Positions 1,704-49,900 of a stretch of 64,000 bases of DNA are shown in pieces (position 1 is the first letter of the stretch; each line of letters starts with the position of its first letter). Below the pieces are notes generated by a model. The model was given only the letters and a program-made list of their open reading frames with translations. It searched no databases and was not told the origin of the DNA. This stretch comes from Roseimicrobium gellanilyticum (GTDB taxonomy: Bacteria; Verrucomicrobiota; Verrucomicrobiia; Verrucomicrobiales; Verrucomicrobiaceae): assembly GCF_003315205.1 (NCBI RefSeq), contig NZ_QNRR01000006.1, positions 248,001 to 312,000 of the forward strand, in the 5' to 3' direction. Made by a program: the position numbers and the translations under genes.

Positions 1704-4510
1704 CTACTTTCGCCTACAACTGCTCCGTCCAGACGAATGTTTCGCCGCCTTTCAAACAAGGGAATCCACTTCTGTCCCTCGAACATTCCCGTGCACCAGA
1801 AGGCGGCAATCGTCATTGATGGAGTATTGTAAGGAAACAGGATTGTTCCTTCGGTCTCGTGGTCTCCGAGGGCTCTTCGTTTGGCCGCATTTCTCATCAA
1901 CTCCTTCTCACCTGGAGCAGCAGCTTCATAGACGTCGGGCAAAAGTATTTGGGCACCGACCTTTGATAGATAGCTCTTCAACTGCAGCCGTTTTGCCTCT
2001 TCCAAGATGGATCCGGATCCAGAAAGAATGCGCTCCTCACTTCTGAGGCACCGACCCATTGTCACTTTTACCCGATCGGAGTCCACACCCACCAGATGCA
2101 ATGCGGCCCGAAATTCTTGTTCACTCTGTTCACGACCCACTCCAAATACAAATATCAGGTTAATTTGCTTCAGGCGTTTCTGTGCGACTTTACCAAGAGG
2201 GTCAACGTGGTGCTCAGCCAGTTTCACATTCTCCGGAAGATCGACCTCGAGCCATTCAGCCAGAATGTTTAGCGCTTGATATCCAGAGTTGATATTGTCG
2301 TCAAAAAGGATTATCGTTTCCGAAGTTCTGACAACGCTATCAGCTAACATAGTAACTTTATTGCCTACAGTTCTGATTTTTTCATCGGCGTTGTTCTTCC
2401 ACGAGTAGATCAAGTGATTGGCGCTGTCGGCGAGATTTCCCAAAGGAACAATTGCCACCTTTCCAGACAACTGGTCACTTGCATCGTGAAAGACCTCGGA
2501 AACCAGCTTTCCCACCTGAATAGGGTACACAATTTCAAATCTATCGCAGAGCATCAATGCAGACGGTTGCAATTCCTGAGGAAACTGCCCCACGAAGGCA
2601 GTCACATCAGCTACCGTTACCGGTAACTTTCCAGGGGGGCAGAAGGCTCTCAATTTAGCTGTAATGGAGGCAATTTTCTCGTTTGTAGCCATCAACTTTA
2701 AAAAGGGCGACAGCGGCTTGAGGCGCCTTGCACCGACATAGTAGTTATTTTTGTCCAACTGTTGCCTGATGCGTTCCGCATTGGAAATCACAGATGACGC
2801 AACATAGCCTTCTTGCGCGTATTGAAGAGCGAATTCATCCCAGATCACGCGTTCCGCTGCCAGCAGCACGAGCGCACAAAGTTGCGAAGGCGCAAACAAA
2901 TAACCGAGAGCCCGATTCTGAAGGTAGTAGTGAACTACTTGGTCGATTGGCAGTGTCCACCGAATGGGCAAGCTCGCTGGGTGTTCTATGTACAGCGAGT
3001 TTTGCCCTTGTTGCACACGCTCATACTCTGGGACATCCAGTAGAATATCCCTGAGATCGTCCTCGTGAATCGGAGTCGAGGCGTCCAAGGCTGCCACAAT
3101 TTTGCGCAACTCAGCGAGAATCAACAGCGTGTAGCCATCCGCTCCATTCTTCATAACTTGAAACAAACTCATTGAGCGAGTTGGTGCCGTATGCTGATCA
3201 GTGCTGGGCAGCGGGTCCGAGAGACTATTGCTAGGTCCGAATGCAAAAGCTCGTCGAACTAGCGCACGATCGCGCAGTTTGGTGACCCCGAAATCGGAGT
3301 ACTTAATCTCCATTTCTTTATAACTTTCAACCTTCACTTCACGTGGCAAAAGAGAATCCGGCTGAGCCACTCCCGATTCGCTTAACCATAGCCAACTGTG
3401 CAGTTGATCATACTCGCGCACTTTCGAAGGGATTCGCGCCAAATAAGACCCCAACTGAGCTTCAGCCGCTCTAACCTTCTGGTGAAGGTAGATCTTGTCA
3501 TACAACGACACTCGAGCGAGACAGAATTCCTCGAAGGCAAATTGTCCTCCCTTCGACATGCCGAACACAAGCAGACCTTGATCATCGAAGCATTCCTTCA
3601 GGTGTCTAAGTCCCTCAGGCAAACTTTCACCCTTGCACTCAAAGACATTGATCTTATCGATGATCCGCCCCAAGTCTACGGATAGAGGTAAGTTTGCATA
3701 GTGCGCCTCTCGAGGCATATAGTCCAGTTTGTCCGCGTCGAGCCCACCACTTATTACCTGTGCTAAAAAGACTGTGTTTGGTCGTCCAGGGACTGGCATT
3801 CCTGCGATAAAGTGAGCTGCGTCGCACACCCACCGAGCGATAATATTGTCTCTCCCTCCTTCTTTAATATCCAGTTTTCGCAGAAAAGACCGCATGGGCT
3901 CGCAGGTCAGAATTGCGATGGACAAGACCTCTGCAGGGGCAAGCATTTTCGGCCTGCGAAAGAATGTCTGAAATTCTTTCAATATTTGCTGTGAAGAAGG
4001 GTAACGGTCCGAGCCTTGAAGATTCCATAAGATCCGCTCGGATACGTGACTGAAAAGACAATGTCCTATGTCATGGAACAATGCTGCGAGGCGGACTGGT
4101 GTCAGAAAGTCATCAATAGTCGCACCCACCGGCATCTTAGGGTATTTGGCCACTGAATCGATGTACTTTAATCGATTGACCATTTCCATCGACCTCGCGA
4201 GCACCCCGAGGGTATGCTCGAACCTGCTGTATGCTAGAGCAGGATACACCAGTTTGGCCAATCCAAGCTGGGTAATGCCTCTAAGTCGCTGGAACAACCG
4301 TGTGTCCACGATCGCAACTTCCCAAGGAAGAAGGTGACTGTACCCTACAATAGGATCTGAGATGGACTTGCCTCCATAGGAATCAAATGCCTCCTCAGAG
4401 AGTCCCGCCACAGGCTCCAGATGGTATGCGACAAACTTCGACACACCTTGCCAGAACTGCGCTAACGGTCGCGAAGTTTGCAACTCAGAGAGCAGTTCAA
4501 TTTGTTCCAT
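1700..4510 (-). CDS. HD-domain (SAMHD1/dGTPase-like) hydrolase fused to a PRTase-CE-like domain
   Basis: A 936-residue protein. The N-terminal half carries an HD phosphohydrolase: SRFEHTLGV (His99), ALFHDIGH (His146-Asp147) and GGLDADKLDYMPREAHY near 255-271, the last being characteristic of dNTP triphosphohydrolases of the SAMHD1/dGTPase type. The C-terminal part has a phosphoribosyltransferase-like loop, ETIILFDDNINSGYQ, around residues 725-740. It ends in FPYNTPSMTIAAFW...WIPLFERR, which matches my memory of the PRTase-CE family described from biological-conflict systems. No signal peptide is seen, so it is cytosolic. The ATG at 4510 is preferred to an upstream TTG at 4522. Lines I counted range from 38 to 57% GC, lower than the neighbours, which suggests horizontal acquisition. 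Nucleotide hydrolysis is well supported. A defence role is inference. Confidence 0.75.
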   Translation of the reverse strand: MEQIELLSELQTSRPLAQFWQGVSKFVAYHLEPVAGLSEEAFDSYGGKSISDPIVGYSHLLPWEVAIVDTRLFQRLRGITQLGLAKLVYPALAYSRFEHTLGVLARSMEMVNRLKYIDSVAKYPKMPVGATIDDFLTPVRLAALFHDIGHCLFSHVSERILWNLQGSDRYPSSQQILKEFQTFFRRPKMLAPAEVLSIAILTCEPMRSFLRKLDIKEGGRDNIIARWVCDAAHFIAGMPVPGRPNTVFLAQVISGGLDADKLDYMPREAHYANLPLSVDLGRIIDKINVFECKGESLPEGLRHLKECFDDQGLLVFGMSKGGQFAFEEFCLARVSLYDKIYLHQKVRAAEAQLGSYLARIPSKVREYDQLHSWLWLSESGVAQPDSLLPREVKVESYKEMEIKYSDFGVTKLRDRALVRRAFAFGPSNSLSDPLPSTDQHTAPTRSMSLFQVMKNGADGYTLLILAELRKIVAALDASTPIHEDDLRDILLDVPEYERVQQGQNSLYIEHPASLPIRWTLPIDQVVHYYLQNRALGYLFAPSQLCALVLLAAERVIWDEFALQYAQEGYVASSVISNAERIRQQLDKNNYYVGARRLKPLSPFLKLMATNEKIASITAKLRAFCPPGKLPVTVADVTAFVGQFPQELQPSALMLCDRFEIVYPIQVGKLVSEVFHDASDQLSGKVAIVPLGNLADSANHLIYSWKNNADEKIRTVGNKVTMLADSVVRTSETIILFDDNINSGYQALNILAEWLEVDLPENVKLAEHHVDPLGKVAQKRLKQINLIFVFGVGREQSEQEFRAALHLVGVDSDRVKVTMGRCLRSEERILSGSGSILEEAKRLQLKSYLSKVGAQILLPDVYEAAAPGEKELMRNAAKRRALGDHETEGTILFPYNTPSMTIAAFWCTGMFEGQKWIPLFERRRNIRLDGAVVGESS

Positions 4511-38472: not shown

Positions 38473-40224
38473 TTAACGCTCTTCGGAGCTCGCACTCTTC
38501 GTGCCGCGACCTTCCCTGCCGTCTCTGGACGACACCACCTTCACCTTGTTGTCACGCGCCGCATCAATCACCTCAGCCACTGCCTTGTCAGGCACGTCCG
38601 CATCAGCCTGCACCTGGAGCGTCATCCCGGCGCCATGCTCACTGAGATAACCACGCAGCCTGCCCACCGGAATGGTTTCATTGCCAATCTTCACCTGTTC
38701 ACCCTTGTCAGTCACGAGCAGCACCACGGCCTGACCTTCAGCCCCATCGCGACCACTTTTGGCAGCTTCTCCATCTCGGGCGCCACGCTTGGTGGAGCCT
38801 TCCCCGTCGCGCATGCCCTCCTTCCTTCCCTCACCATCGCGGGGTCCTTTCTTTTGCCCTTCTCCGTCGCGAAGGCCGGTCTTCTTGGCTTCCCCGTCGC
38901 GCACACCTTCTCGCTTGCCTTCGCCGTCGCGGGCGCCGGTCTTCCTTTCCTCCCCATCGCGAGGTCCGGATTTTTTCTCTTCACCGTCTCGTGGGCCCGT
39001 TTTTTTGACCTCGCCATCCCGGGGGCCGGTCGACTTTGCCTCGCCATCCCGAGGTCCATCCTTTTTCGCCTCGCCATCACGAGGTCCGGTTTTTGCCTGC
39101 TCGCCATCACCCTTGGACTTTTCTTCCGTGCTCCTTGGCTGGCCATCAGGATCTGCGCTGGCAGTGGTGAAAGTGAGGCAGGCCAGTGCAGGCACAATCA
39201 AGAGGGCCGCATAGCGGGCCACAGCAGAGGAGCGGGGCAGTGCGATCATTTGGATGCGAGTTTGGATTTCCTTGGTGTGACGGAAGAACGGCACCGCAGG
39301 CACAGGCACGCTTGCGAGGCTGTTTTCCAAAGTCTTCAACAGCGCCTCGCCATAATGCGAACGCTGCGTGTGGCTGAGCTTCTCCAGCGCGATGCGGTCG
39401 CACTCCAGCTCCGCATCTGCCCGCATGCGGCGGGCCAGCAACCACACAAGTGGATTGAACCAATGCAGTGCGCACACCGCCAGCAGCACACGGCCCCAGA
39501 TCAGGTCGCCACGGCGTACATGGGCAAGCTCATGCAGGAACATCCCGCGAATCTCCTCGGCGCTGAATCGCTCGCTCAAGCCCTCCGGCACCAGAATGAC
39601 CGGGCGCAGCCACCCATGCACAGCCATGGTAGGCAGGCCGCGCACCGTCCAGAGACCGCAGCCCTTTGCCACGCCCATGCGTTGCTGGCACCACTCCAGT
39701 TCACGAAAAAGACCTGTGTCCGTGCGTGTGCGATGACGGGAAATCAAATGGTGCAAGACTACATGCGAATACACGATCCATGCAGCGACGCTCACCAAGC
39801 CTGCGAGCCAGAGCCACACCGCCATCGACCACAGTGAAGGCATGGCGAAGGCCCTTTCATGAACCGCAGTTGTTTCACTTAACGCATGTCCGCGCTCAGC
39901 CGCGACTCCCTCGTCAGGCAATCCCTGGTGAATGGGGACCATCTCCACCGGCAGCGACACCTCACTACGCTGCGTCAATGGGGCCACCTGCGCATGCTGC
40001 AGCGGCACTTCCAACGAGGGTCTCCACGAAACCTCCGGCACCCACGGCAACAGCAAACGCACCACCACAATGGCAGCGAGCCAACTGCGCCAGCGCGCCG
40101 GAAAACTCTGCCAACGTCCAAGAAGCAAAACAACCAGAGCAGGCAGCAGGATGATGAGCGAGGTATTCCACGCCCAGGTGGCTGCGGTCACAAGGCCTGA
40201 GGTGAGCGAGTCTGGCAGGTTCAT
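38473..40224 (-). CDS. M56-family (BlaR1-like) membrane metalloprotease with decapeptide-repeat linker and ExbD/TolR-like tail
   Basis: A 583-residue protein. The N-terminal membrane segments are near 18-36, 46-62 and 136-154. The M56 protease domain carries GMFLHELAHVRRGDLIW (zinc motif HExxH) and ADAELECDRIALEKL, as in BlaR1/MecR1 sensors. After a further hydrophobic segment (YAALLIVPALACLTFTTASA) come eleven copies of a GPRDGEAKK-like decapeptide (DNA 38755-39087). The last roughly 85 residues, VVLLVTDKGEQVKIGNETI then LQVQADADVPDKAVAEVIDAA, resemble the periplasmic domain of TolR/ExbD. It has no penicillin-binding sensor domain. The start overlaps the blaI-like stop as ATGA. By analogy it would cleave the repressor on receiving a signal. 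The signal is unknown. Confidence 0.85.
   Translation of the reverse strand: MNLPDSLTSGLVTAATWAWNTSLIILLPALVVLLLGRWQSFPARWRSWLAAIVVVRLLLPWVPEVSWRPSLEVPLQHAQVAPLTQRSEVSLPVEMVPIHQGLPDEGVAAERGHALSETTAVHERAFAMPSLWSMAVWLWLAGLVSVAAWIVYSHVVLHHLISRHRTRTDTGLFRELEWCQQRMGVAKGCGLWTVRGLPTMAVHGWLRPVILVPEGLSERFSAEEIRGMFLHELAHVRRGDLIWGRVLLAVCALHWFNPLVWLLARRMRADAELECDRIALEKLSHTQRSHYGEALLKTLENSLASVPVPAVPFFRHTKEIQTRIQMIALPRSSAVARYAALLIVPALACLTFTTASADPDGQPRSTEEKSKGDGEQAKTGPRDGEAKKDGPRDGEAKSTGPRDGEVKKTGPRDGEEKKSGPRDGEERKTGARDGEGKREGVRDGEAKKTGLRDGEGQKKGPRDGEGRKEGMRDGEGSTKRGARDGEAAKSGRDGAEGQAVVLLVTDKGEQVKIGNETIPVGRLRGYLSEHGAGMTLQVQADADVPDKAVAEVIDAARDNKVKVVSSRDGREGRGTKSASSEER
38755..39087 (-). repeat. Tandem 30-bp coding repeats (decapeptide GxRDGExxxx, 11 copies)
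   Basis: Eleven in-frame units of about 30 bp encode G(P/A/V/L/M)RDGE followed by four mostly Lys/Glu/Thr residues. One unit is 11 residues long (RDGEGSTKR). They lie inside the M56 gene, so this is a coding minisatellite. Strongly charged, it should form an extended periplasmic linker. Slippage could change copy number between strains. Confidence 0.9.
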
Positions 40225-40634
40225 TTCTGATCTCCTTTCAACAAGCGACGCATCTCCTCGATTTCCTTCGGCGTGACCTCCTCACGCTCGAGGAAGCAGG
40301 CCAGCAACGGGGCGAGCCGGCCTCCAAATACACGGTCTACAAAAGTCTTGCTCGCCTCATGCACGCACTGTGCTTCCCCCACGAGTGGCCGGTAGATGTA
40401 CTCACGTCCCTCCTGCCGGAAGCCGAGCGCCTGCTTCTGCACCAAGCGATTGATCAGCGACTGCACCGTGCGCGGCTTCCAGTGCTGCTTCCCCTCCAGG
40501 GCCGCGACGATCTGCTTCGCAGTAGCTTCAGCGAGGCGCCAGAATTCCGTCATGACCACCCACTCTGCATCGGAGATGGAAGGAATGGTGGGGGCGGATT
40601 TCGTCGTGGCAGACTTGGAACGGGGCGAGGGCAT
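40221..40634 (-). CDS. BlaI/MecI-family transcriptional repressor
   Basis: A 137-residue winged-helix regulator. PSISDAEWVVMTEFW, KQIVAALEGKQHWKPRTVQSLINRLVQK and EGREYIYRPLVG match the BlaI/MecI/CopY DNA-binding domain, and a C-terminal dimerisation helix (ASKTFVDRVFGGRLAPLLACFLERE) follows. The ATG at 40634 is chosen. The longer frame to 40856 runs back over the divergent kinase gene start and has no support. It overlaps the M56 protease gene by 4 nt, the classical repressor-sensor pair. It probably represses its own operon from the dyads at 40651-40690, and perhaps the divergent kinase. Confidence 0.9.
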   Translation of the reverse strand: MPSPRSKSATTKSAPTIPSISDAEWVVMTEFWRLAEATAKQIVAALEGKQHWKPRTVQSLINRLVQKQALGFRQEGREYIYRPLVGEAQCVHEASKTFVDRVFGGRLAPLLACFLEREEVTPKEIEEMRRLLKGDQK

Positions 40635-40650
40635 GCGTGAGGACGTTTTG

Positions 40651-40690
40651 ATTACGCTCGTAATATTAGGGATGAAATCACAAGTGTAAT
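40651..40690. promoter_or_regulatory. Two BlaI-type operator candidates
   Basis: Two dyads with the same 6-2-6 geometry lie upstream of the BlaI-type gene: ATTACG-CT-CGTAAT at 40651-40664 (perfect) and ATCACA-AG-TGTAAT at 40677-40690 (one mismatch). Their centres are 26 bp apart. The second matches the TACA..TGTA core of known BlaI/MecI operators. A TAATAT between them could be a -10 box on the minus strand. Both also lie upstream of the divergent kinase gene. Binding is inferred. Confidence 0.5.
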
Positions 40691-40795
40691 CGGTGGGCAA
40701 GGGCTTTTTTGCACTTTCGACAAAAAGAGGCACGGCGGGTGGTACGTGGCCGCTTGGCAAGACTTTCTCCGGCAGGTTGTATTGTGACTCTGCAG

Positions 40796-42775
40796 ATGGC
40801 GAGCCTCCGCACCACGTTTCCCTGGCTGATTCTCTTCCTGTTGATGTCCCCCTCATCAGCGGTCGCTGAGGTGTGGACCCTGCTCAACAAGCACCTCGCC
40901 TCCATCGATCACTGGCGCAGCCTCACACACGCTCGCCTGGCATCATTGCCTCCCCTGCCCCCGCCGCAGGCGCATGAGCATGCGGGATTTCACAGCAGCT
41001 TTTCCTCCACGGAAGATGCGGTCCGCTGGGTGCAAGTGGACCTTGGCAAAGAGGTGCCCGTGGATCAGGTGGTAGTGATTCCGGCATACTTCGGCGCGAC
41101 CAGCGAGGGCGCCGGCCCGTACGGATGGCCTGCACGTTTCCGCATCGATGCTTCGCGGGATGCCGAGTTCACCGAATCCGTGACTCTCTTCGATGGCACG
41201 GGACAGGAGCAGCCTTCACGCGTGGCGCCATGCGTCGCGGATGGCAAAGGCATCACCGCGAGATACGTGCGTTTCAGTGCCAACCGGCTCGCGCGCCAGC
41301 TTCGCAGCCAGAACCGCTACATGTTCTGCCTCGGAGAGCTGATGGTCTTCTCTCAAGGTGTGAACGTCGCGCTGCACGCGGCCGTGACCTCCACAAGATC
41401 CCTCGACACTCCACCGACATGGTCGGCCACTCACCTCGTGGATGGTTGGACGGCGCTTGGCATTCCGGCGATACTCAATCCGAGTCGACCCCCAGGTAAT
41501 GGCTGGCACAGCGGCATCTCGCCCCTGGCGGACACAGCCAAATGGGTGCAGGTGGATCTGGGCAGCAGCACACCGATTGAAGAGGTGCGCCTGTATCCGG
41601 CGCATCCGCCTGATTTTCCAGATCGGCCGGGGTTTGGGTTTCCGCGTCGCTTTCGACTGGAGTCCTCGAACGATGCCACCTTCACCAACGCGCAGGTGAT
41701 CGCGGATCACACGGACGCGGATTTTGCCAACCCTGCGGATAACGTGGTCACCTTCCGCACGAGTCAACTGAAAGGGCGGTATGTGCGACTCACCGCCACT
41801 CAACTTTGGCAGCGCAACGAGGACTTCGTCTTCGCCCTGGCGGAATTGGAAGTGATGTCTTCGGGAAGGAATGTCGCGATGGGCGCGCCCGTCACATTCC
41901 TCGATGAGACCAGTACCGGCTCATGGAATCGCACCCGGCTGGTCGATGGTGAAGTGGCGCAAGGAGGCCTGGTGGATCCACTCTCATGGTACCGGGAACT
42001 CGCCGGGCGGGTGAAGCTTGAAGAAGAACTCATCAAGCTGGACTCCGGGCGCACGGCCGCTCTGGCCCTGGCCCACGAACGCGCCTTGTGGGTCGGAGGT
42101 ACGTTGGTGATGTCTGCCGCGGTCACGGGACTGGCACTGATGCAACGCGGACGTCAGGCAAGGCGTCGCGAACTGGAAGCCTTGCGCGAGCGCATCGCGC
42201 GCGACCTGCATGATGAAGTGGGCAGCCACCTCGGGAGCATCTCCCTCGCCGGTGAACTGGCGCTACGTCAGAAGGATCTCGATGAAGACACGCGTGCTGC
42301 ACTGGACGAGATGCAACGCGCCGCGAAGCAGGCAGCGGAGTCCATGCGTGGCATCTTGTGGCTTGTGCGAGAGGAGGGTGAGCCCTCCCTGCTGCGGCTT
42401 ATGCAGGCCCTGCGAGAGAGTGCCACCGCCCAACTTCACGGCATCGACTGGGACGTGCAGGTGAAAGAGCCCGCCCTGGATCGAGCAGCACCTCTGGAGT
42501 TTCACCGGCATGTGTTCCTCTTCTTCAAGGAGGCCATGCACAACATTGCGCGTCACGCGCACGCCACGGAAGTGCGCGTGAACGTGGCATGGCATGACCA
42601 TGCCTTTGACTTGAGCATTCACGACAACGGCCACGGCTTTGATGCAGCACGCAAGTCTGATGGCAGCGGACTGGCGAACATGAAACATCGCGCGGAGGCA
42701 TTGCACGGACGCATGGAACTTGCCACCGTGCCTGGAAGCGGCACCACCATCACCCTCAACGCACAGCTTGCCTGA
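40796..42775 (+). CDS. Sensor histidine kinase with two discoidin-like (F5/8 type C) periplasmic domains
   Basis: A 659-residue kinase. The signal peptide is MASLRTTFPWLILFLLMSPSSAVA. Two periplasmic discoidin-like domains follow. The first (about 60-185) has RWVQVDLGKEVPVDQVVVIP and ARYVRFSANRL. The second (about 190-350) has KWVQVDLGSSTPIEEVRLYP and GRYVRLTATQL. A transmembrane helix (LWVGGTLVMSAAVTGLALM) lies near 428-446. The HisKA_3 motif RIARDLHDEVGSHLGSISLA has its His near residue 471, and the HATPase shows DNGHGFDAARKSDGSGLANMKHRAEALHG. Discoidin folds commonly bind sugars, so an extracellular glycan is a likely signal. The response regulator follows after 1 nt. Confidence 0.9.
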   Translation: MASLRTTFPWLILFLLMSPSSAVAEVWTLLNKHLASIDHWRSLTHARLASLPPLPPPQAHEHAGFHSSFSSTEDAVRWVQVDLGKEVPVDQVVVIPAYFGATSEGAGPYGWPARFRIDASRDAEFTESVTLFDGTGQEQPSRVAPCVADGKGITARYVRFSANRLARQLRSQNRYMFCLGELMVFSQGVNVALHAAVTSTRSLDTPPTWSATHLVDGWTALGIPAILNPSRPPGNGWHSGISPLADTAKWVQVDLGSSTPIEEVRLYPAHPPDFPDRPGFGFPRRFRLESSNDATFTNAQVIADHTDADFANPADNVVTFRTSQLKGRYVRLTATQLWQRNEDFVFALAELEVMSSGRNVAMGAPVTFLDETSTGSWNRTRLVDGEVAQGGLVDPLSWYRELAGRVKLEEELIKLDSGRTAALALAHERALWVGGTLVMSAAVTGLALMQRGRQARRRELEALRERIARDLHDEVGSHLGSISLAGELALRQKDLDEDTRAALDEMQRAAKQAAESMRGILWLVREEGEPSLLRLMQALRESATAQLHGIDWDVQVKEPALDRAAPLEFHRHVFLFFKEAMHNIARHAHATEVRVNVAWHDHAFDLSIHDNGHGFDAARKSDGSGLANMKHRAEALHGRMELATVPGSGTTITLNAQLA

Positions 42776-42776
42776 C

Positions 42777-43430
42777 ATGGAGTCCACGGAAACGAAGCAC
42801 ATCTGGGTTGTGGAAGATCACGTTCCCTTCCGGCGAACGTTGGCAAAGGTGCTCAATGCGGAGGCTGCGCTGCATTGCTCCGCAGCGTTTGACTCTTGCG
42901 AGCGGGCGCTCGAAGCTCTGGCAGATTCCAAAGCGGAACAGCCCGATGTCATCCTGCTGGATGTAGGACTGCCAGGCATGAGCGGGCTGGAGGGCATTCG
43001 CCTGTTCCGCGAACGCAGTCCGCATACGCTGGTGATTATTCTCACCGTCTTCGAGGACGACGAGAAAATCTTCCAAGCCATCTGCGCGGGAGCGTCCGGA
43101 TATCTTCTGAAAACTGCCGGTGCGGATGCCATCGTGCAGGCCATCCATGATGCGCTGGCTGGAGGTTCTCCGATGAATCCACGCATCGCGCGGCGCGTGC
43201 TTGAGATGTTTTCGCGGCTGGCGCCCAAGAAGGCGGACTATGGTCTGAGCGAGCGCGAAAAGGAAATCCTCCAGCACATGGTGAAAGGTCTCATCAAGAA
43301 GGAAATCGCCGATCGCCTGCAACTCAGCGTGCACACGGTGGATACCTACTTGCGCCGCATCTACGAGAAGCTGGAGGTGAACACCCGCACCGGCGCCGTC
43401 GCGAAGGCGCTGAAGGAAGGGTTGGTTTAA
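42777..43430 (+). CDS. NarL/LuxR-type response regulator
   Basis: A 217-residue regulator. The receiver domain has the acidic pair in WVVEDH (13-14), the phospho-acceptor Asp62 in VILLDVGLPGMSG, Thr in VIILTVFED and Lys in GYLLKTAG. The C-terminal LuxR helix-turn-helix is LSEREKEILQHMVKGLIKKEIADRLQLSVHTVDTYLRRIYEKL. The ATG lies 1 nt after the kinase stop, so the two are co-translated. A HisKA_3 kinase with a NarL-type regulator is the standard pairing. Its targets probably include the PSD1/DUF1501 pair that begins 72 nt downstream (inference). Confidence 0.95.
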   Translation: MESTETKHIWVVEDHVPFRRTLAKVLNAEAALHCSAAFDSCERALEALADSKAEQPDVILLDVGLPGMSGLEGIRLFRERSPHTLVIILTVFEDDEKIFQAICAGASGYLLKTAGADAIVQAIHDALAGGSPMNPRIARRVLEMFSRLAPKKADYGLSEREKEILQHMVKGLIKKEIADRLQLSVHTVDTYLRRIYEKLEVNTRTGAVAKALKEGLV

Positions 43431-43450
43431 GGGAGGGGGTAGCAACCTGT

Positions 43451-43464
43451 CACGCGGACGCGTG
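43451..43464. promoter_or_regulatory. Dyad upstream of PSD1 pair 4
   Basis: CACGCG-GA-CGCGTG is a perfect 6-2-6 dyad, 20 nt after the response regulator stop and 38 nt before the PSD1 start. It could be an operator for the adjacent response regulator or the stem of a small hairpin. No T-run follows. Assignment is tentative. Confidence 0.3.
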
Positions 43465-43502
43465 GCATGAAAACGCAGCAGAAAGTCCGTTAATGGACGG
43501 TG

Positions 43503-46500
43503 ATGCTTCGTGCCGTCCCTGCCATTCCGAGCCTGCTCGTACTCCTGTCCACCAGTCTCCCGGCGACACCGGTGGAATTCGTGCGGGACGTGCGGCCTAT
43601 CTTCGAGAAGCACTGCTACGAGTGTCACGGCGCAGACAAACAGAAGAGCGGCTTCCGGCTGGATGTGAGGCAGGAGGCCTTCACCAGTGGCGATGGCCAC
43701 GCGCCCAACCTGCTGACGGGCAAGAGCACGGAGAGCCCGCTTTACCGCTTCATCAGCGGCATGGATGACAAGGTCCAAATGCCTCCCAAGGGGAAGGGAA
43801 ACGCACTGAGCCAGGCGGAGGTTGCCACCATCAAGCGATGGCTGGATGAAGGTGCTGTGTGGCCGGATGGTATCGATACCGCCAAGGTGGAGGACCGGAT
43901 GGATTGGTGGGCGTTCAAACCGCTGACACTACCAGATGTGCCAAAGCAGAGCACAGCGGGCGCACCCGGCATAAGCAGGAACGCAATCGATGCCTTCATC
44001 CAGACGAGGCTTCGTGAATACGACGCCACGCCTGCGCCCGAAGCGAACGCGCACACCTTGATTCGCCGCTTGAACTACGATCTCATCGGCCTGCCGCCCA
44101 CGCCTGAGGAAGTGGCTGCATTCACACGGGAGCAATCTTCCGCAGACCCTGCCGAGCGGGAAAGAAGCTACCTAGCACTCGTGGATCGCCTCCTGGCATC
44201 CCCGCGTTATGGTGAACGCTGGGCACGACACTGGCTGGATCTGGCACACTACGGAGAGACACACGGGTATGACAAGGACAAGCTCCGCCTTAACGCGTGG
44301 CCCTATCGCGACTATGTGATCCGCGCCTTCAATGAAGACCGCGCCTATGCACGATTCGTGCAGGAACAGATTGCAGGGGACGTGCTGTATCCCGGCACGG
44401 TTGATGGCATCGTGGCGCTGGGTTTCATCGCGGCGGGTCCGTGGGATCTCATTGGTCACGCCGAGGTCCCGGAGTCGAAAATCGATGGCAAGATTGCCCG
44501 TCACCTCGACCGCGATGACATGGTGCAGAATGCGATGGGCGCCTTCACCTCGCTCACGGTCGGGTGTGCCCAGTGCCACCATCACAAGTTCGACCCCATC
44601 ACCCAGGAAGACTACTATGCACTGCAGGCAGTCTTTTCGGCCCTGGATCGCGCGGACCGGAAATACTTCGCGGATGATCGGCTGACAAAGCAGTTCAATG
44701 ACCTCGAAGCAGCTCAGCAAACCCTGGCGGAGAAACAAAAGCGGCTGGAGGACAAGCTGAAGAGTCTGGGAGGGGAGGCACTGGTCAACCTTGACAGACG
44801 CATGGAAGCCTCGAGGCAACTCGGGAAAGGGAACCTGCGCACCGAGTTCGGCTATCACAGTGCCATCTCATCCGCTCAAGAGGCGACGAAATGGGTGCAG
44901 GTGGATCTGGGCCACAGTGCCGTGCTGGATAGGATTGCAATGCGACCCTGCTACGATGACTTCAATGGTATTGGAGCCGGCTTCGGTTTTCCGCTGCGTT
45001 ACCGCGTCGAAGCCTCCGATGATCCGGCCTTTCAGAAGAGTGTGATCCGGCTCGCCTCGTACGAGGACAAGGACGCAGCCTCACCTGGCACCACTCCCAT
45101 CACCATTCCAGCCAATGGAACGACCGCTCGCTATGTGCGCGTCACCGCCACAAAGCTCGCACCGCGCAAGGACGACTACATCTTCGCGCTCGCAGAGGTG
45201 CAAGCACATGACACCGCGGGCAAGAACGTGGCGGAAGGTGCTTCGGTCACTGCACTGGATTCCATCGAAGCGCCACCACGATGGAGAAAAGCCAATCTGG
45301 TCGATGCCATTTCGCCAGTGGTGGATGACTCCGGTGCATTGGCCATCCTTCAAAAAGAAAGAGAGGAACTGCTGGCGACACTTGGTGACACGGCGCTTCA
45401 CGAAGAACTGGCAGAGACAAAGCAAAAGCGCACTGAAACGACCAAGGCACTCGCAACATTCCCCAAGCCAGATGTGGTGTACGCAGGGACCATCCATCAC
45501 GGCACCGGCGCCTTTGCAGGCACGGGCTCCAGCGGTGGCAAGCCGCGACCCATTTATCTTCTAAAACGTGGAGATGTAAAAACGCCTGCCCAGGAAGTGG
45601 GGCCAGGATCCATCACGGCCATCTCGAACCAATTTCACCTCGCAGCCCGCTTTCAATTTCCGGATGCCTCCACTGAAGGCGCACGTCGTGCTGCGCTGGC
45701 AGACTGGATCACCGCTCGCGACAATCCCCTCACCTGGCGCAGCATCGTGAATCGTGTCTGGCAGCATCACTTCGGGCGCGCGTTGGTGGATACACCGAAT
45801 GACTTCGGGCGCATGGGAGCGAAGCCGACCCACCCGGAGCTTCTGGACTGGCTGGCCGTTTCCTTTCGCGATGATATGCAGGGCTCGCTCAAGCAACTGC
45901 ACAAGCTCATCGTCATGAGCCACACGTATCGCCAGGCTTCGGAGTCCCCCTTTTCGCACATCATGGCGTCTCGTGACGGCGACAATCAACTCCTCTGGAG
46001 ACAGAACCGGCGCAAGCTGGATGCGGAGTGTGTAAGAGACACGGTGCTCTCCATCTCTGGAGAGCTCGACCTCACCATGGGTGGCCCCAGTTTCCAGGAC
46101 TTTGTTATCGAGAAGCCGCAACACTCGCCACACTACGAATACAACCTGCACGACCCCAACGATCCCAAGTCGCATCGGCGAAGCATCTACCGCTTCATCG
46201 TGCGCTCCCAGCAGCAGCCCTTCATGACCACGCTGGATTGTGCGGATCCTTCCATGCGAGTGGACAAGCGCAATGAGTCCATCAGTCCCCTGCAAGCGCT
46301 GGCCCTTCTGAACAACGGTCTCACCGTGGCCATGGCGGACCACTTTGCGAATCGGGTCCAGCACGAAGCGACCACTCTTGAAGCACAGATTCGGCGAGCC
46401 GTTTCCCTGGCGCTGGGACGGCCTGCCACTTCTGAGGAAATGCAGGCACTCTCTGCCTATGTCCGGCAGCACGGGTTTGCCAACCTCTGCCGCCTTCTCA

Positions 46501-46532
46501 TGAATCTGAATGAGTTCAACTTCGTGGACTGA
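43503..46532 (+). CDS. Cytochrome-containing DUF1549/DUF1553 (PSD1) protein with a discoidin-like domain, pair 4
   Basis: A 1009-residue exported protein. The PSCyt1 domain has FEKHCYECHGADKQKSGFRL. DUF1549 has HYGETHGYDKDKLRLNAWPY and CAQCHHHKFDPITQEDYY. A coiled segment (LEAAQQTLAEKQKRLEDKL) leads into a discoidin-like domain (about 440-570) with KWVQVDLGHSAVLDRIAMRP and ARYVRVTATKLAPR. DUF1553 has DNPLTWRSIVNRVWQHHFGRA and ESISPLQALALLNNG. The discoidin-like domain closely matches those of the upstream kinase, word for word in WVQVDLG and ARYVR. I use the ATG at 43503, though a GTG lies directly before it. A DUF1501 gene follows after 8 nt. Confidence 0.9.
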   Translation: MLRAVPAIPSLLVLLSTSLPATPVEFVRDVRPIFEKHCYECHGADKQKSGFRLDVRQEAFTSGDGHAPNLLTGKSTESPLYRFISGMDDKVQMPPKGKGNALSQAEVATIKRWLDEGAVWPDGIDTAKVEDRMDWWAFKPLTLPDVPKQSTAGAPGISRNAIDAFIQTRLREYDATPAPEANAHTLIRRLNYDLIGLPPTPEEVAAFTREQSSADPAERERSYLALVDRLLASPRYGERWARHWLDLAHYGETHGYDKDKLRLNAWPYRDYVIRAFNEDRAYARFVQEQIAGDVLYPGTVDGIVALGFIAAGPWDLIGHAEVPESKIDGKIARHLDRDDMVQNAMGAFTSLTVGCAQCHHHKFDPITQEDYYALQAVFSALDRADRKYFADDRLTKQFNDLEAAQQTLAEKQKRLEDKLKSLGGEALVNLDRRMEASRQLGKGNLRTEFGYHSAISSAQEATKWVQVDLGHSAVLDRIAMRPCYDDFNGIGAGFGFPLRYRVEASDDPAFQKSVIRLASYEDKDAASPGTTPITIPANGTTARYVRVTATKLAPRKDDYIFALAEVQAHDTAGKNVAEGASVTALDSIEAPPRWRKANLVDAISPVVDDSGALAILQKEREELLATLGDTALHEELAETKQKRTETTKALATFPKPDVVYAGTIHHGTGAFAGTGSSGGKPRPIYLLKRGDVKTPAQEVGPGSITAISNQFHLAARFQFPDASTEGARRAALADWITARDNPLTWRSIVNRVWQHHFGRALVDTPNDFGRMGAKPTHPELLDWLAVSFRDDMQGSLKQLHKLIVMSHTYRQASESPFSHIMASRDGDNQLLWRQNRRKLDAECVRDTVLSISGELDLTMGGPSFQDFVIEKPQHSPHYEYNLHDPNDPKSHRRSIYRFIVRSQQQPFMTTLDCADPSMRVDKRNESISPLQALALLNNGLTVAMADHFANRVQHEATTLEAQIRRAVSLALGRPATSEEMQALSAYVRQHGFANLCRLLMNLNEFNFVD

Positions 46533-46540
46533 CTCACACC

Positions 46541-48019
46541 ATGACTGCCCCCCAATCCCATCCCAGACGACACCTCACACGCCGTGAGCTTCTTTCGACC
46601 TGTGCCCAGGGATTCGGTGGCATCGCCCTCGCGTCCTTGATGGGCAGTGAAGGACTCTTCGCCGCGTCACCTCGAGCCGCAGCCACTCGCCCGCCCAAGG
46701 CGCGTCGTGTCATCCAGCTCTTCATGGCCGGCGCCGCGAGCCACATCGATCTCTTTGATTACAAGCCCGAACTGGTGAAGCGCCACGGAGAAGCGTCGGA
46801 TTTTGGGGAGCAAGTCGAGGCATTTCAAAACGGGCTTGGTCCGTGGAAGAAACCAGTGTGGGACTTCCGCCCTTATGGACGCAGCGGAAAGATGATCAGC
46901 GATGCTGTGGCGCCGCTGGGAGACTGCATCGATGACATCGCCTTTGTGCACAATCTGGTGGGCAAGACCGGGGTGCATTCGCAAGGCACCCTACTCCAGG
47001 CCACGGGATTCAATCTCCCCGGCTTCCCCGGCATGGGCGCGTGGGTAAGCTATGGCCTTGGGTCGCTGAGCGAAAATCTGCCTGCCTTTGTCGTGCTTCC
47101 GGATCATCGCGGCTTTGCTTCCAATGGCCCGAAGAACTGGGACGCTGCCTTCCTCCCCTCACAGCACGCAGGCACGGTGATCTACCCCGGCGCGGAGACT
47201 CCCATCTCGGACCTCTTTCCACACAAGTCTGGCCGCTACATCACCCCGAGCTCCGATGCGGAGGGGTTGTCCCTGCTCGCGAAGCTGAACAAGAAGCACG
47301 CCGTGCTCCGCGAAGACGATGCCCGCCTGGAATCGCGCATCCGCAGTTATGAACTGGCTGCCAAGATGCAGCTCGCCGCTCCCGAGGCGCTCGATATCTC
47401 CCGCGAGCCCGCGTACATCCGCGAAATGTATGGCATTCGCGATGGCGGAAGTGCGTGGCCATCCGAGATCAATCCCGAGGAAGAGGCGGACATCATGGGA
47501 CGCAAGTGTCTCGCGGCGCGGAGATTGGTCGAGCGCGGGGTGCGCTTTGTGCAGATCTGGAGTGGCAATGACAATGGCTTCCCCCGGCGCAACTGGGACT
47601 CGCATGAAGACATTGAGCGCGATCACGGACCTCTCGCCTGGGGCATGGCCAAGGCGGTAAGCGCACTCATCCGCGACCTGAAGCAACGCGGCCTGCTGGA
47701 GGACACCCTCATTCTTTGGACCACCGAATTCGGCCGCATGCCCAGCACTCAAGGTGGCAGAGGACGCGACCACAATCCCTACGTCTTCACGAACTGGCTT
47801 TGCGGTGGCGGCATCAAGGGCGGGATCACCCATGGTGAGAGCGATCCGTGGGGCTACAAGCCGCTCGATCGCGCCAACCCCACGCTGGTCTATGACATCC
47901 ATGCGACGATGTTGCATCTCCTGGGCATCGACCACGAGAAACTCACCGTGCGACACAATGGCATCGACCGACGTCTCACGGATGTACACGGGCATGTGAT
48001 TCGTGAGCTGCTCGCCTGA
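46541..48019 (+). CDS. DUF1501 protein, pair 4
   Basis: A 492-residue Tat-type exported protein (LTRRELLSTCAQGFGGIALASL). The core has VIQLFMAGAASHIDLFDYKPE, in which the usual GG(P/V)SHxD is GAASHID, then LILWTTEFGRMPSTQGGRGRDHN and FTNWLCGGGIKGG. The 'sulfatase-like' EFGR motif is retained, but the Gly/Ala changes make this the most divergent of the five copies. It lies 8 nt downstream of PSD1 pair 4. Periplasmic function as for the family; substrate unknown. Confidence 0.9.
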   Translation: MTAPQSHPRRHLTRRELLSTCAQGFGGIALASLMGSEGLFAASPRAAATRPPKARRVIQLFMAGAASHIDLFDYKPELVKRHGEASDFGEQVEAFQNGLGPWKKPVWDFRPYGRSGKMISDAVAPLGDCIDDIAFVHNLVGKTGVHSQGTLLQATGFNLPGFPGMGAWVSYGLGSLSENLPAFVVLPDHRGFASNGPKNWDAAFLPSQHAGTVIYPGAETPISDLFPHKSGRYITPSSDAEGLSLLAKLNKKHAVLREDDARLESRIRSYELAAKMQLAAPEALDISREPAYIREMYGIRDGGSAWPSEINPEEEADIMGRKCLAARRLVERGVRFVQIWSGNDNGFPRRNWDSHEDIERDHGPLAWGMAKAVSALIRDLKQRGLLEDTLILWTTEFGRMPSTQGGRGRDHNPYVFTNWLCGGGIKGGITHGESDPWGYKPLDRANPTLVYDIHATMLHLLGIDHEKLTVRHNGIDRRLTDVHGHVIRELLA

Positions 48020-48063
48020 AATCTTTGCGGGAAAACATGGAGGTCCGGCGGCGTATTGCCCAC

Positions 48064-49167
48064 ATGAAGCGCTGCCTCCTCCTCCTGTCGTGCCTCGATA
48101 TCTCAGTGTGGTCCATGGCCCAAGAAACTTCGGTGCCCGCGGAGCAAGAGCCCTCTGACATCCAGCGCGTGGTCGCAGTGAAGGATGTATGCGCCTGGCC
48201 CAACCTCACGTTGATGAAGGACGGAAGCATCGTGGCAGTGCTGCACAACAAACCCTCCCACGGACAGATGGAGGGTGATGTGGAATGCTGGGCCAGCAAG
48301 GACGGCACCGGGTGGGAGAAACGCAGCGTGATCACCCAGCACGAACCAGACACCATCCGCATGAATCACGCGGCAGGTCTCGCCAAGAATGGAGATCTGA
48401 TCGTGCTGTGCTCGGGCTGGACGAATGTGAAGCAACCCGAGCGCCCTAAGCAGGATCCGTTTCGCGACGCCGTGCTCAGCAACTGGGTGATGCGCTCCAG
48501 TGACGGCGGCAGGACATGGACGAAGAGCGTCGCATTCCCCGGGACAGATGCAGGCTGGTCCCACCATATTCCCTTTGGCGATATCTGGGTCGGCGAAGAC
48601 GGCGCACTGCACACCTCATGCTATCGGGGCAAGCTCGCGAGCCCGGAGAAGAGTTTCAAGATCGCCAGCTACGAGTCCTGGTACTTTCGCAGTGAGGACG
48701 ACTGTCGCACCTGGAAAGCGGTATCCATCATCGGACCGAAGCACAACGAGACCGACATCTTCCCACTCGGCGGCAAGCGCTGGATGGCAGCCGCGCGCAT
48801 CGATGCCATGGAGCTGTTCATCTCCGAGGACAATGGCGTTACCTGGAGCTCGCCGCAACGCGTGACCGCTCGCAATGAGATCAATGGCCACCTCATGCGG
48901 CTCAAGGATGGCCGTCTCGTACTGAGCTACGGCGTCCGTGTGCAAGGACAGCGTGGGGTACGCGCCAAGTTCAGCAGCGATGAAGGCAAGACCTGGAGCG
49001 CCCCCATTCGTGTGATGCGCAGTGACGAAGGCGACTGTGGCTACCCTGCCAGCGTGCAGCGTGCTGATGGAAAGATCGTGACTGCCTACTACTCGCGCAA
49101 AGCGCCAGAACACGATGGTTACCACATGGGCGTGGCCATCTGGGCGCCCCCTGCGGAGAAAAAATAG
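48064..49167 (+). CDS. Sialidase-like (BNR/Asp-box) exported protein
   Basis: A 367-residue protein, a six-bladed-propeller candidate. Asp boxes (S-x-D-x-G-x-x-W) appear as SSDGGRTW, SEDDCRTW, SEDNGVTW and SSDEGKTW, with a degenerate SKDGTGW. The signal peptide is KRCLLLLSCLDISVWSMAQ. The layout matches exo-alpha-sialidase and related planctomycete/verrucomicrobial glycosidases, but Asp boxes are structural and do not prove sialidase activity, and I could not fix the catalytic Arg triad. The start is the ATG at 48064; another ATG at 48037 has a GGGAA ribosome-site-like sequence. It follows the DUF1501 gene on the same strand. Confidence 0.75.
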   Translation: MKRCLLLLSCLDISVWSMAQETSVPAEQEPSDIQRVVAVKDVCAWPNLTLMKDGSIVAVLHNKPSHGQMEGDVECWASKDGTGWEKRSVITQHEPDTIRMNHAAGLAKNGDLIVLCSGWTNVKQPERPKQDPFRDAVLSNWVMRSSDGGRTWTKSVAFPGTDAGWSHHIPFGDIWVGEDGALHTSCYRGKLASPEKSFKIASYESWYFRSEDDCRTWKAVSIIGPKHNETDIFPLGGKRWMAAARIDAMELFISEDNGVTWSSPQRVTARNEINGHLMRLKDGRLVLSYGVRVQGQRGVRAKFSSDEGKTWSAPIRVMRSDEGDCGYPASVQRADGKIVTAYYSRKAPEHDGYHMGVAIWAPPAEKK

Positions 49168-49193
49168 CGGGTTGTGAAAGAGAGGGGCAATCC

Positions 49194-49209
49194 AAACGGT
49201 ATACCGTTT
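49194..49209. promoter_or_regulatory. Palindromic operator candidate of the GntR/FCD regulator
   Basis: AAACGGTATACCGTTT is a perfect 16-nt palindrome 19 nt upstream of the GntR-type start. Its GGTATACC core matches the core of ExuR/UxuR-type operators (TTGGTATACCAA). This suggests autoregulation by a GntR/FCD protein, possibly one sensing uronates. Binding and effector are inferred. Confidence 0.55.
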
Positions 49210-49228
49210 CAACCATCCTCTCCGGCCC

Positions 49229-49900
49229 ATGTTTCACGACGTCCCCACGTCCCCACGCACCCTCACCGATGAAACTGCCCAGCGCCTGCGGCAGGACATC
49301 ATCCACGGCATCACGCCTGCCGGCACACGACTCGCAGAGGCGGCGGTGGCGAAGCAACTCGGGGTGAGCCGGGTGCCAGTGCGTGAGGCGTTGGTCATGC
49401 TGGAGCGTGAAGGGCTCATTGGGTTCAGCACCACGGGCCGCGCCTATGTAAAGGACCTCACGCCGCAGGACTTTGAGGAGCTTTTTCTCCTGCGCCTCGC
49501 CCTGGAACCGCTCTCTGCCAGGTTCGCCGCCGCCCAGCTGAAGGGAGACGCAAGCTTGCTGGAGCAGAACATCCGGGAAACATCCCACGCGAAGACTCTT
49601 CGGGATGTGACCTCGCTGGACCTCGACTTTCACCAGATCATTCTTGAAGCCTCGCTCCAGCCCCGGCTGGTGCGTCTGTGGAAGTCGCTGCGGCCTGAGT
49701 TGGAGCTCTGGCTCTCCCGACTGCACCGCAATCACCAGACGCAGACCCATGCCACGCGCCAGACGACGGTCGAGGCACACACTCGCATGCTGGAATGTTT
49801 CCGCGGAGAAACACCCGCCGCGGCAGAAAAGATTACGCGACAGCACATCGTTGGCTGGAGGGAATGGCTGCCCTCACCGGGAGAGCTGCCGTCGGCATAA
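49229..49900 (+). CDS. GntR-family (FCD/FadR subfamily) transcriptional regulator
   Basis: A 223-residue regulator. The N-terminal winged helix has LRQDIIHGITPAGTRLAEAAVAKQLGVSRVPVREALVMLEREGLI. The FCD effector domain (about 80-215) has ELFLLRLALEPLSARFAA, a DLDFHQIILEAS motif with Asp and His as metal ligands, and AEAH-like TTVEAHTRMLECF. FCD regulators commonly sense sugar acids, organic acids or uronates. A palindrome lies immediately upstream, and PSD1 pair 5 begins 12 nt downstream. So it probably regulates its own operon. Confidence 0.93.
   Translation: MFHDVPTSPRTLTDETAQRLRQDIIHGITPAGTRLAEAAVAKQLGVSRVPVREALVMLEREGLIGFSTTGRAYVKDLTPQDFEELFLLRLALEPLSARFAAAQLKGDASLLEQNIRETSHAKTLRDVTSLDLDFHQIILEASLQPRLVRLWKSLRPELELWLSRLHRNHQTQTHATRQTTVEAHTRMLECFRGETPAAAEKITRQHIVGWREWLPSPGELPSA

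Follow-up and report, generated by a model that had tools for sequence, protein, structure and literature searches.

The stretch of Roseimicrobium gellanilyticum DNA analysed here (the window: 64,000 nucleotides, positions 248001-312000 of contig NZ_QNRR01000006.1, G000:C6, in a genome of 7.93 Mb) encodes a sensor histidine kinase, a response regulator, a PSD1 protein and a DUF1501 protein that probably make up a dedicated unit for sensing and handling a glycan. The signal would pass from the glycan to the kinase, from the kinase to the regulator and from the regulator to a dyad in the DNA. This would put the PSD1-DUF1501 operon under the control of the ligand recognised by a discoidin module that the kinase and the PSD1 protein have in common. 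The domains, the common descent of the modules, the synteny, the shared cis element and the co-divergence of the second kinase module (D2) with the PSD1 module are established at the level of sequence comparison; regulation of the PSD1 gene by this two-component system is well supported by the same comparisons, and a common ligand of the kinase and the PSD1 module is likely. The features of the locus are as follows.

40796..42775, + strand: sensor histidine kinase of 659 aa, start ATG 40796 (domain scan and structure model)
40979..41359, + strand: core of discoidin module D1, kinase residues 62-188 (PF00754, 34.9 bits alone; strands in the model)
41489..41863, + strand: core of discoidin module D2, kinase residues 232-356 (PF00754, 44.0 bits alone; model)
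41864..41959, + strand: segment NVAxGxxVT..LVDG 3' of D2, resembling the usual N-terminal strand of the fold, C-terminally placed (PF00754 44.0 to 49.6 bits)
42777..43430, + strand: response regulator with receiver and GerE (NarL/LuxR-type) DNA-binding domain (domain scan)
43448..43470, + strand: dyad TGTCACGCG-GA-CGCGTGGCATGA, proposed operator 5' of the PSD1 gene (pattern and matrix analysis of upstream regions)
43503..46532 (GTG 43500 or ATG 43503), + strand: PSD1 protein, PSCyt1-PSCyt2-(discoidin)-PSD1 (domain scan)
44841..45218, + strand: PSD1 discoidin module, residues 448-573 counted from GTG 43500, CBM32 fold (VIA-align to 4zxe)
45219..45308, + strand: C-terminal NVAEGASVTALDS..NLVDA segment of the PSD1 module (placed first, 33.7 to 37.2 bits; shuffled, 33.7)
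46541..48019, + strand: DUF1501 protein, 8 nt after the PSD1 gene (domain scan)
40740..40759, + strand: weak, doubtful dyad copy 5' of the kinase ATG, with 3 mismatches and no counterpart found in L079, the sister locus

The regulator ATG lies 1 nt past the kinase stop codon, and the PSD1 ATG follows the regulator after 72 nt; the first-pass annotation had the adjacency right and the gap, given as 73 nt, wrong by one. Because the gaps are 1, 72 and 8 nt, the kinase, regulator, PSD1 and DUF1501 genes are likely to form one operon, and a DUF1501 gene comes next after PSD1 in many of the loci fetched. The kinase is composed, in order, of a hydrophobic N-terminus, a helical arm, D1, D2, a second hydrophobic stretch (approximately residues 430-449), HisKA_3 (with H472 invariant in 68 sequences) and HATPase_c. 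The PSD1 protein has CxxCH haem motifs at residues 39 and 356 (numbered from GTG 43500).

The discoidin module of the kinase and the PSD1 protein

In a Pfam scan the kinase matches PF00754 in two stretches (71.9 bits, cut-off 28.2) and contains HisKA_3 and HATPase_c, and the PSD1 protein contains PSCyt1, PSCyt2 and PSD1 domains with a single PF00754 match (30.2 bits); the isolated cores score 34.9 (D1), 44.0 (D2) and 33.7 bits (PSD1 module). The characteristic motifs are RWVQVDLG and ARYVRFSA in D1, KWVQVDLG, GFGFPRRFRLESS and GRYVRLTA in D2, and KWVQVDLG, GFGFPLRYRVEAS and ARYVRVTA in the PSD1 module, and an alignment of five modules (the three of the window and two of a paralogous kinase) has 18 invariant columns. 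It had been proposed at first pass that the kinase carries two copies and the PSD1 protein one copy of the same discoidin-like domain, which the PF00754 matches, the invariant columns and the superposition on CBM32 structures bear out; the motifs quoted in that proposal are present in all three modules, except that D1 reads RWVQVDLG and not KWVQVDLG. By alignment and profile, the kinase modules and the PSD1 module are a single discoidin subfamily (PF00754; CBM32 fold) of common descent and not domains of unrelated folds.

The structure models of the kinase and the PSD1 protein have mean pLDDT values of 90.3 (68 sequences) and 79.7 (40 sequences), respectively. The PSD1 insert (residues 448-573) sits between long helices in its model, and in comparison with CBM32 structures it superposes on 4zxe with Z 10.9 and rmsd 2.1 over 103 residues (VIA-align) and on 2v72 with Z 10.6 and rmsd 2.2 over 105 aligned residues, galactose- and fucose-binding relatives coming next. 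For the kinase model, the tandem discoidin b1b2 pair of neuropilin-1 is found at rank 49 in Foldseek (9eou, E 1.1e-8, 314 columns), and among the matches listed by VIA only the kinase core is covered. Profile matches of the module to the PDB are to CBM32, lectinolysin, neuropilins and a fucolectin, all of them weak. The conserved His of the GxHS motif of the module aligns with the His of WHS in 4lks; in a comparison with F-type lectins, which are weak profile matches, the His of the THT motif, presumably the one that binds fucose, falls on a lower-case, non-conserved profile column.

The CBM32 alignments begin near residue 27-32 of the isolated modules, and in all three modules (D1, D2, PSD1) the core is followed by a sequence resembling their first strand (NVAxGxxVTAxDS..LVDG). 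Placement of this segment before the core raises the PF00754 score of D1 from 34.9 to 39.9 bits (40.1 with the segment that follows D2), that of D2 from 44.0 to 49.6 bits if the segment is the one C-terminal to D2 itself and to 45.1 if it is the one naturally upstream, and that of the PSD1 module from 33.7 to 37.2 bits with its own segment, a shuffled segment leaving it at 33.7; the PF22633 score of the PSD1 module does not gain. Since the PF00754 scores rise when the segment is moved to the front, circular permutation is likely to be a trait common to D1, D2 and the PSD1 module, on gains that are small in bits. The module is like CBM32 in fold and in the aligned His of GxHS, but differs from it as a subfamily of its own with a GFGFPxRF core and a strand order that is likely circularly permuted.

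Distribution, gene neighbourhood and descent

A profile of the five modules matches, at E 1e-10, in 105 of the 141 genomes of the order, and the first 150 matches listed lie at 96 places in 76 genomes (L041-L134, the window and L008), which are termed the order sample. Of the 127 module proteins of this sample, 71 are PSD1 proteins, each with a single module, 54 are kinases, each with two, and the remaining two are GH78 alpha-L-rhamnosidases (L093:5291-9553 and L124:8024-12295). Comparison of 16 kinase sensors with named genomes gave at least 437 relatives, of which the best 80 were used (the named sample); these comprise 67 two-module kinases and 48 PSD1 proteins with one (41), two (6) or three (1) modules, and in L182 (Chthoniobacter flavus Ellin428), a record with both the kinase and the PSD1 frame broken, one more two-module frame is a kinase broken by a frameshift. 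The two samples overlap in genomes and are not independent. A phylum-wide search at E 1e-15 matched in 29 of 240 genomes, and the loci fetched from it hold 13 more module proteins that are neither kinase nor PSD1; of the nine that were domain-scanned (bringing the scanned proteins of this kind to 11 of 15), seven are GH78 and two are GH127 beta-L-arabinofuranosidases (L235-L247). In L093 a HisKA_3 kinase (2227-4461) stands beside the module-bearing GH78 gene, with a sensor that looks discoidin-like by eye and is unreported by Pfam.

The regulator gene directly follows the kinase gene in 64/67 cases of the named sample and 45/54 of the order sample. A module-bearing PSD1 gene lies within 10 kb of 35/67 and 31/54 kinases, respectively, and any PSD1 gene within that distance of 43/67 and 36/54. 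Near eight (named) and five (order) kinases the only PSD1 has no visible module, this PSD1 being cut by the locus end in L147 and L154 (named) and in L075 and L119 (order), and near 24 and 18 kinases there is no PSD1, 18 of the 24 (within 4.5 kb) and 10 of the 18 being cut by a contig or locus end. The genes are co-directional with PSD1 downstream in 30 named and 26 order loci, divergent in three and five, and arranged with PSD1 upstream in two and none. Viewed from the PSD1 side, the order sample has such a kinase within 10 kb of 31 of its 71 module-bearing PSD1 genes, and 13 of the other 40 are cut. Kinase, regulator and PSD1 occur together in Verrucomicrobiota and in a few cases in Planctomycetota: in the named sample, module-bearing PSD1 genes are near 20/36 kinases of Verrucomicrobiia, 4/7 of Spartobacteria, 9/11 of Verrucomicrobiota without an assigned class, 2/6 of Planctomycetota (one Gemmataceae, one Planctomycetaceae), 0/2 of Pedosphaerae and 0/1 of an Acidobacteriota metagenome-assembled genome. 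Among the 12 HisKA_3 kinases of the R. gellanilyticum genome itself, both discoidin kinases and none of the ten others are within 10 kb of a PSD1 gene (Fisher p 0.015). The neighbourhood association anticipated by the first-pass annotation is present in both samples, and the kinase-PSD1 association is, by gene order, wider than the window alone could show.

In a tree of 126 modules (quick method), one branch (SH-aLRT 96) holds 43/43 D2, 37/37 PSD1 and 2/2 GH78 modules and 3/44 D1, and D2 is nearer to the PSD1 modules than to D1. On that branch, 19 of 24 single PSD1 modules form one group with the first modules of multi-module PSD1 proteins, and the second and third PSD1 modules and the other five single ones are placed among D2. 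Aligned with the two-module insert of a planctomycetal PSD1 protein (L162), the kinase sensor shows 165/366 identities (45%, E 3e-89), as far as into the helix after module 2, and this insert scores higher against the window sensor than do 64 of the 120 kinase sensors of the two samples and all 29 of the phylum-wide search set. Because the insert is collinear with the sensor and scores so high against it, either the kinase has, judged by alignment, a PSD1-type insert as its sensor, or the PSD1 protein has a kinase-type sensor as its insert.

Co-divergence was compared over 43 distinct kinase-PSD1 pairs (65 before near-copies were removed). With kinase core and PSD1 core fixed, the partial Mantel correlation with the PSD1 module is 0.37 for D2 (0/1000 permutations) and -0.02 for D1 (605/1000); the partial correlation of D1 is 0.43 with D2 and, when kinase core and PSD1 module are fixed, 0.44 with the PSD1 core, and the kinase core correlates with the PSD1 module at 0.26 (2/1000) when D1, D2 and PSD1 core are fixed. 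Applied to a tree, Mantel tests are anti-conservative, and the informative result is the difference between D2 and D1: by this measure, D2 co-diverges with the PSD1 module beyond the host proteins, whereas D1 does not. If domains had merely been shuffled, the kinase could regulate PSD1 in response to a ligand unrelated to that of the PSD1 insert, as the absence of co-divergence for D1 and the pairing of the kinase with a PSD1 without the module in L008 and several other loci might suggest; this is unlikely in view of the near confinement of the subfamily to kinase and PSD1 (125/127 in the order sample), the co-divergence of D2, and the planctomycetal PSD1 inserts collinear with the sensor. If the kinase modules bound PSD1 itself, or competed with it for a cell-surface polymer, the kinase could report whether PSD1 is free or busy. 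A contact of this kind would likewise make D2 co-diverge with the PSD1 module beyond their hosts, and helices precede the module in both models. Such homotypic sensing is quite improbable; a carbohydrate ligand explains more, because GH78 and GH127 enzymes carry the module too and two-module kinases are found in loci in which no PSD1 is seen.

The neighbourhood of the window locus offers some further observations. The PSD1 profile has 58 matches in the R. gellanilyticum genome, and five PSD1 genes, each adjoining a DUF1501 gene, lie inside 40 kb (window 14332-54151). The DUF1501 gene of the locus is followed by a BNR-repeat (sialidase-like) gene and a GntR/FCD regulator gene (window 48025-49900), the latter standing 5' of the next PSD1-DUF1501 pair. 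The genes divergent from the kinase gene (window 38473-40856, - strand) encode a BlaI-type repressor and a BlaR1-like M56 peptidase, the latter containing GPRDGE-type repeats.

The dyad upstream of PSD1 and kinase genes

A dyad of the form TGTCnCGCG-NN-CGCGTGGCATGA is located mostly 25-34 nt 5' of module-bearing PSD1 genes; it is present in many of the regulator-PSD1 gaps of 36 distinct loci, and at nine distinct loci without an adjacent regulator gene (L059, L077, L102, L106, L108, L111, L112, L123, L133). The cultured relative Brevifollis gellanilyticus (L155) likewise has it before its PSD1 gene. A related dyad, TGTCCCGCCTTCGCGTGGGTTGC with variants, stands 5' of many kinase frames or inside their 5' extension, and dyads before module-bearing PSD1 genes and many kinases are present also where the two genes lie kilobases apart. 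The core GT[CG][AC]CG-N6-CG[TG]G occurs in 36/88 distinct upstream regions of module-bearing PSD1 genes (1.3 expected) and 27/86 of kinase genes (1.2 expected), in 3/89 of DUF1501 genes (1.3 expected) and in 0/19 of PSD1 genes without the module. A matrix built from seven variants gives 133 matches at threshold, some of them elsewhere, and 14 in one strand of shuffled sequence. Within the R. gellanilyticum genome the exact pattern TGNCACGCGNNCGCGTGNCA occurs once in 7.93 Mb, 5' of the window PSD1 gene, and with up to two mismatches there are 8 sites versus 10 in the control. In ten genomes, picked because the locus is present in them, 13/13 exact matches to a lineage pattern are at the kinase or PSD1 start of the locus, as are 18/25 matches with at most one mismatch at the locus, the reversed-pattern control giving 0. 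These distributions suggest that the dyad is a newly described, predicted operator of module-bearing PSD1 genes, and the claim made at first pass that the two-component system controls the PSD1 operon is supported in silico by synteny and by the dyad before module-bearing PSD1 and many kinase genes. The paralogous operon has a different perfect dyad, TCACGATCTCTCGTGA, before its PSD1 gene in both genomes in which it was seen (L008, L078), with no second copy within these two loci.

The spacing of the dyad to the start codon is narrow, and it is read on the coding strand in 36/36 PSD1 and 26/27 kinase regions, which would suit a promoter element of a dedicated sigma factor, or an RNA leader, through which a third factor co-regulates kinase and PSD1. 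The dyad folds as a hairpin in two of four leaders (the window and L079) and does not in the other two; none of the four clearly outdoes its shuffles in folding (z -1.43 to 1.19), and an RNA leader in place of a DNA operator is unsupported by folding. At gathering scores, Rfam has no match in the whole window. A NarL-type dimer would fit half sites 2 nt apart, and control by a third factor is on balance fairly unlikely.

Proposed mechanism, ligand and relation to known systems

The membrane kinase is predicted to expose two tandem modules of the discoidin/CBM32 type to the periplasm, where a glycan, most likely one containing L-sugars (for example rhamnose, fucose or arabinose), would bind D2, with D1 and the helical arm perhaps transmitting the signal. 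Ligand binding would change the state of the DesK/NarX-type kinase core. The NarL-type regulator, once phosphorylated, would occupy the dyad that precedes PSD1 and, in many relatives, a dyad at its own operon too. The PSD1-DUF1501 operon would come under control, in a direction that may be activation or repression, of the presumed common ligand, that of PSD1's own inserted module.

Several results weigh against this mechanism, among them the behaviour of D1, the residual correlation of the kinase core and the anti-conservative nature of the Mantel tests. In the named sample, 0/4 Opitutia kinases have a module-bearing PSD1 nearby; near three of them there is a PSD1 that lacks the module. The R. 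gellanilyticum genome itself has a paralogous operon (L008) whose PSD1 carries a PF00754 domain of another type and no copy of the subfamily module, and PF00754 finds no match in the PSD1 proteins encoded next to the kinases of L189, L122 and L208. The kinases of L215-L254 are mostly without PSD1 (which is present in L252 and L253 only) and 0/28 of them have the core dyad, because of which the kinase family is, by genome comparison, wider than PSD1 control; as a general rule, the idea that every kinase of the family serves a PSD1 was rejected, those of L215-L231 standing amid sulfatases and alpha-L-fucosidases. The core dyad is absent from 52/88 PSD1 and 59/86 kinase upstream regions, and its regular expression was composed after the sites had been seen. 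The copy at the window kinase promoter has three mismatches, approximately 0.9 such matches being expected in the window, and no counterpart was found in L079, the sister locus. When kinase and PSD1 upstream regions were compared blind, the signal was weak and the comparison had little power: 9/48 pairs beat all 60 shuffles, and own-locus and cross-locus means were 15.0 and 14.7. The proposal of the first-pass annotation that the kinase senses the same ligand as the PSD1 protein handles is plausible on indirect grounds, favoured by D2, which is nearer to the PSD1 module and co-divergent with it, and tempered by D1, which is not, and by some PSD1 neighbours without the module.

The module is joined to GH78 and GH127 enzymes (alpha-L-rhamnosidase and beta-L-arabinofuranosidase by Pfam name), and because it sits in these enzymes its ligand may be guessed to be an L-sugar glycan. 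The two-module kinase with its adjacent regulator is expanded in some genomes, with 13 examined in G296, 12 of them on one contig of 884,666 bases; the paralogous pairs of L215-L226 (G296:C1, C2), with sulfatases and fucosidases around them, look like an expansion of glycan-locus regulators. In the surroundings of the L215-L231 kinases, 22/99 scanned neighbours (genes of at least 200 aa within 5 kb; L215-L234 hold 142 genes of such size at any distance) are sulfatases and 8/99 are alpha-L-fucosidases, though such genes are common there anyway (38 GH29 matches in G296). On G296:C2, with 23 of 30 GH29 matches used and seven short or weak ones left out, 7/12 kinases are within 5 kb of GH29 (2.7 expected; 91/5000 circular shifts as high), a modest excess, and within 8 kb also 7/12 (361/5000 as high). 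In the Prosthecobacter-like loci L086, L106, L120, L135, L149 and L161, glycolate-oxidase-like genes resembling GlcD, GlcE and GlcF, with scores under the equivalog cut-offs, lie near the kinase, regulator or PSD1 gene, several of these loci adding a class V aminotransferase and L120 an LctP permease, and in many Prosthecobacter-like genomes PSD2-5/PSCyt3 and DUF1552 genes flank the kinase. Glycolate or L-lactate was rejected as the ligand; the Glc and LctP genes are not in the window locus and were taken for this reason as a lineage-specific output.

The receiver and GerE domains of the regulator and the HisKA_3 and HATPase_c domains of the kinase all score over cut-off, which fits the two-component HisKA_3/NarL class. 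The HisKA_3 core and GerE regulator are shared with systems of the UhpB/NarX/DesK type, DesK and VraS being relatives in structure and UhpB (73.6 bits, cut-off 408) and NarX (69.8 bits, cut-off 578) the best NCBIfam relatives of the kinase, and the differences are in sensor domain and target. In polysaccharide utilization loci of Bacteroides, hybrid two-component systems sense glycan breakdown products in the periplasm; they resemble the system proposed here in adjoining the locus that they regulate and in periplasmic glycan sensing, but here kinase and regulator are separate genes, the sensor is a tandem of discoidin modules and the regulator is of the NarL type. The nearest logic is the SigI/RsgI biomass sensing of Clostridium thermocellum, described in passages of PMC4711584, in which a membrane regulator bears the same kind of carbohydrate-binding part as the proteins of its regulon: outside the cell it has CBM3 or an Xyn10D-like GH10, as in enzymes or scaffoldin of the cellulosome regulon. 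It differs in consisting of anti-sigma and sigma factors with CBM3, PA14 or GH10 and no PSD1, in place of kinase and regulator with tandem discoidin modules, and no RsgI-type anti-sigma domain is listed for the kinase by Pfam at E up to 0.1.

Pfam labels the PSD1/PSCyt families as proteins of unknown function. In passages of He et al. 2017 (PMC5615132), F5_F8_type_C is among the domains of PSCyt genes and is listed as a protein-protein interaction domain, PSCyt functions are stated not to be known, and a carbohydrate role is proposed from carbohydrate-binding modules and context; those passages have no kinase with the same module and no two-component link to PSCyt, the word "kinase" having 0 occurrences in the main text. 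The text available of PMC8857213 and PMC12872454 has 0 occurrences of "two-component" and "histidine kinase", and among the titles and abstract beginnings listed from the open literature, mostly without subscription papers, none is on kinases with this module or on regulation of PSD1 genes.

A further-reaching reading is put forward tentatively, with the odds somewhat against it: that the sensor is a transplanted PSD1 insert, that the permuted L-sugar module is interchangeable among sensors, PSD1 haem proteins and GH78/GH127 enzymes of the Planctomycetes-Verrucomicrobia-Chlamydiae (PVC) bacteria, that the PSD1 proteins concerned may be redox enzymes handling L-sugar glycans in dedicated two-site regulons, the sites being the kinase operon and the PSD1 operon, and that each sensor would carry the ligand code of its target. 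In Planctomycetota and Verrucomicrobiota the PSD1/PSCyt proteins form a large family, so far unexplained, and control by a kinase would give a first handle on its function. With a sensor that bears the same module, a predicted operator and cultured relatives, the question of the PSD1 target would become one for a binding and reporter assay, and, if the proposed unit is real, tandem-discoidin kinases would be a candidate glycan-sensing class of these bacteria.

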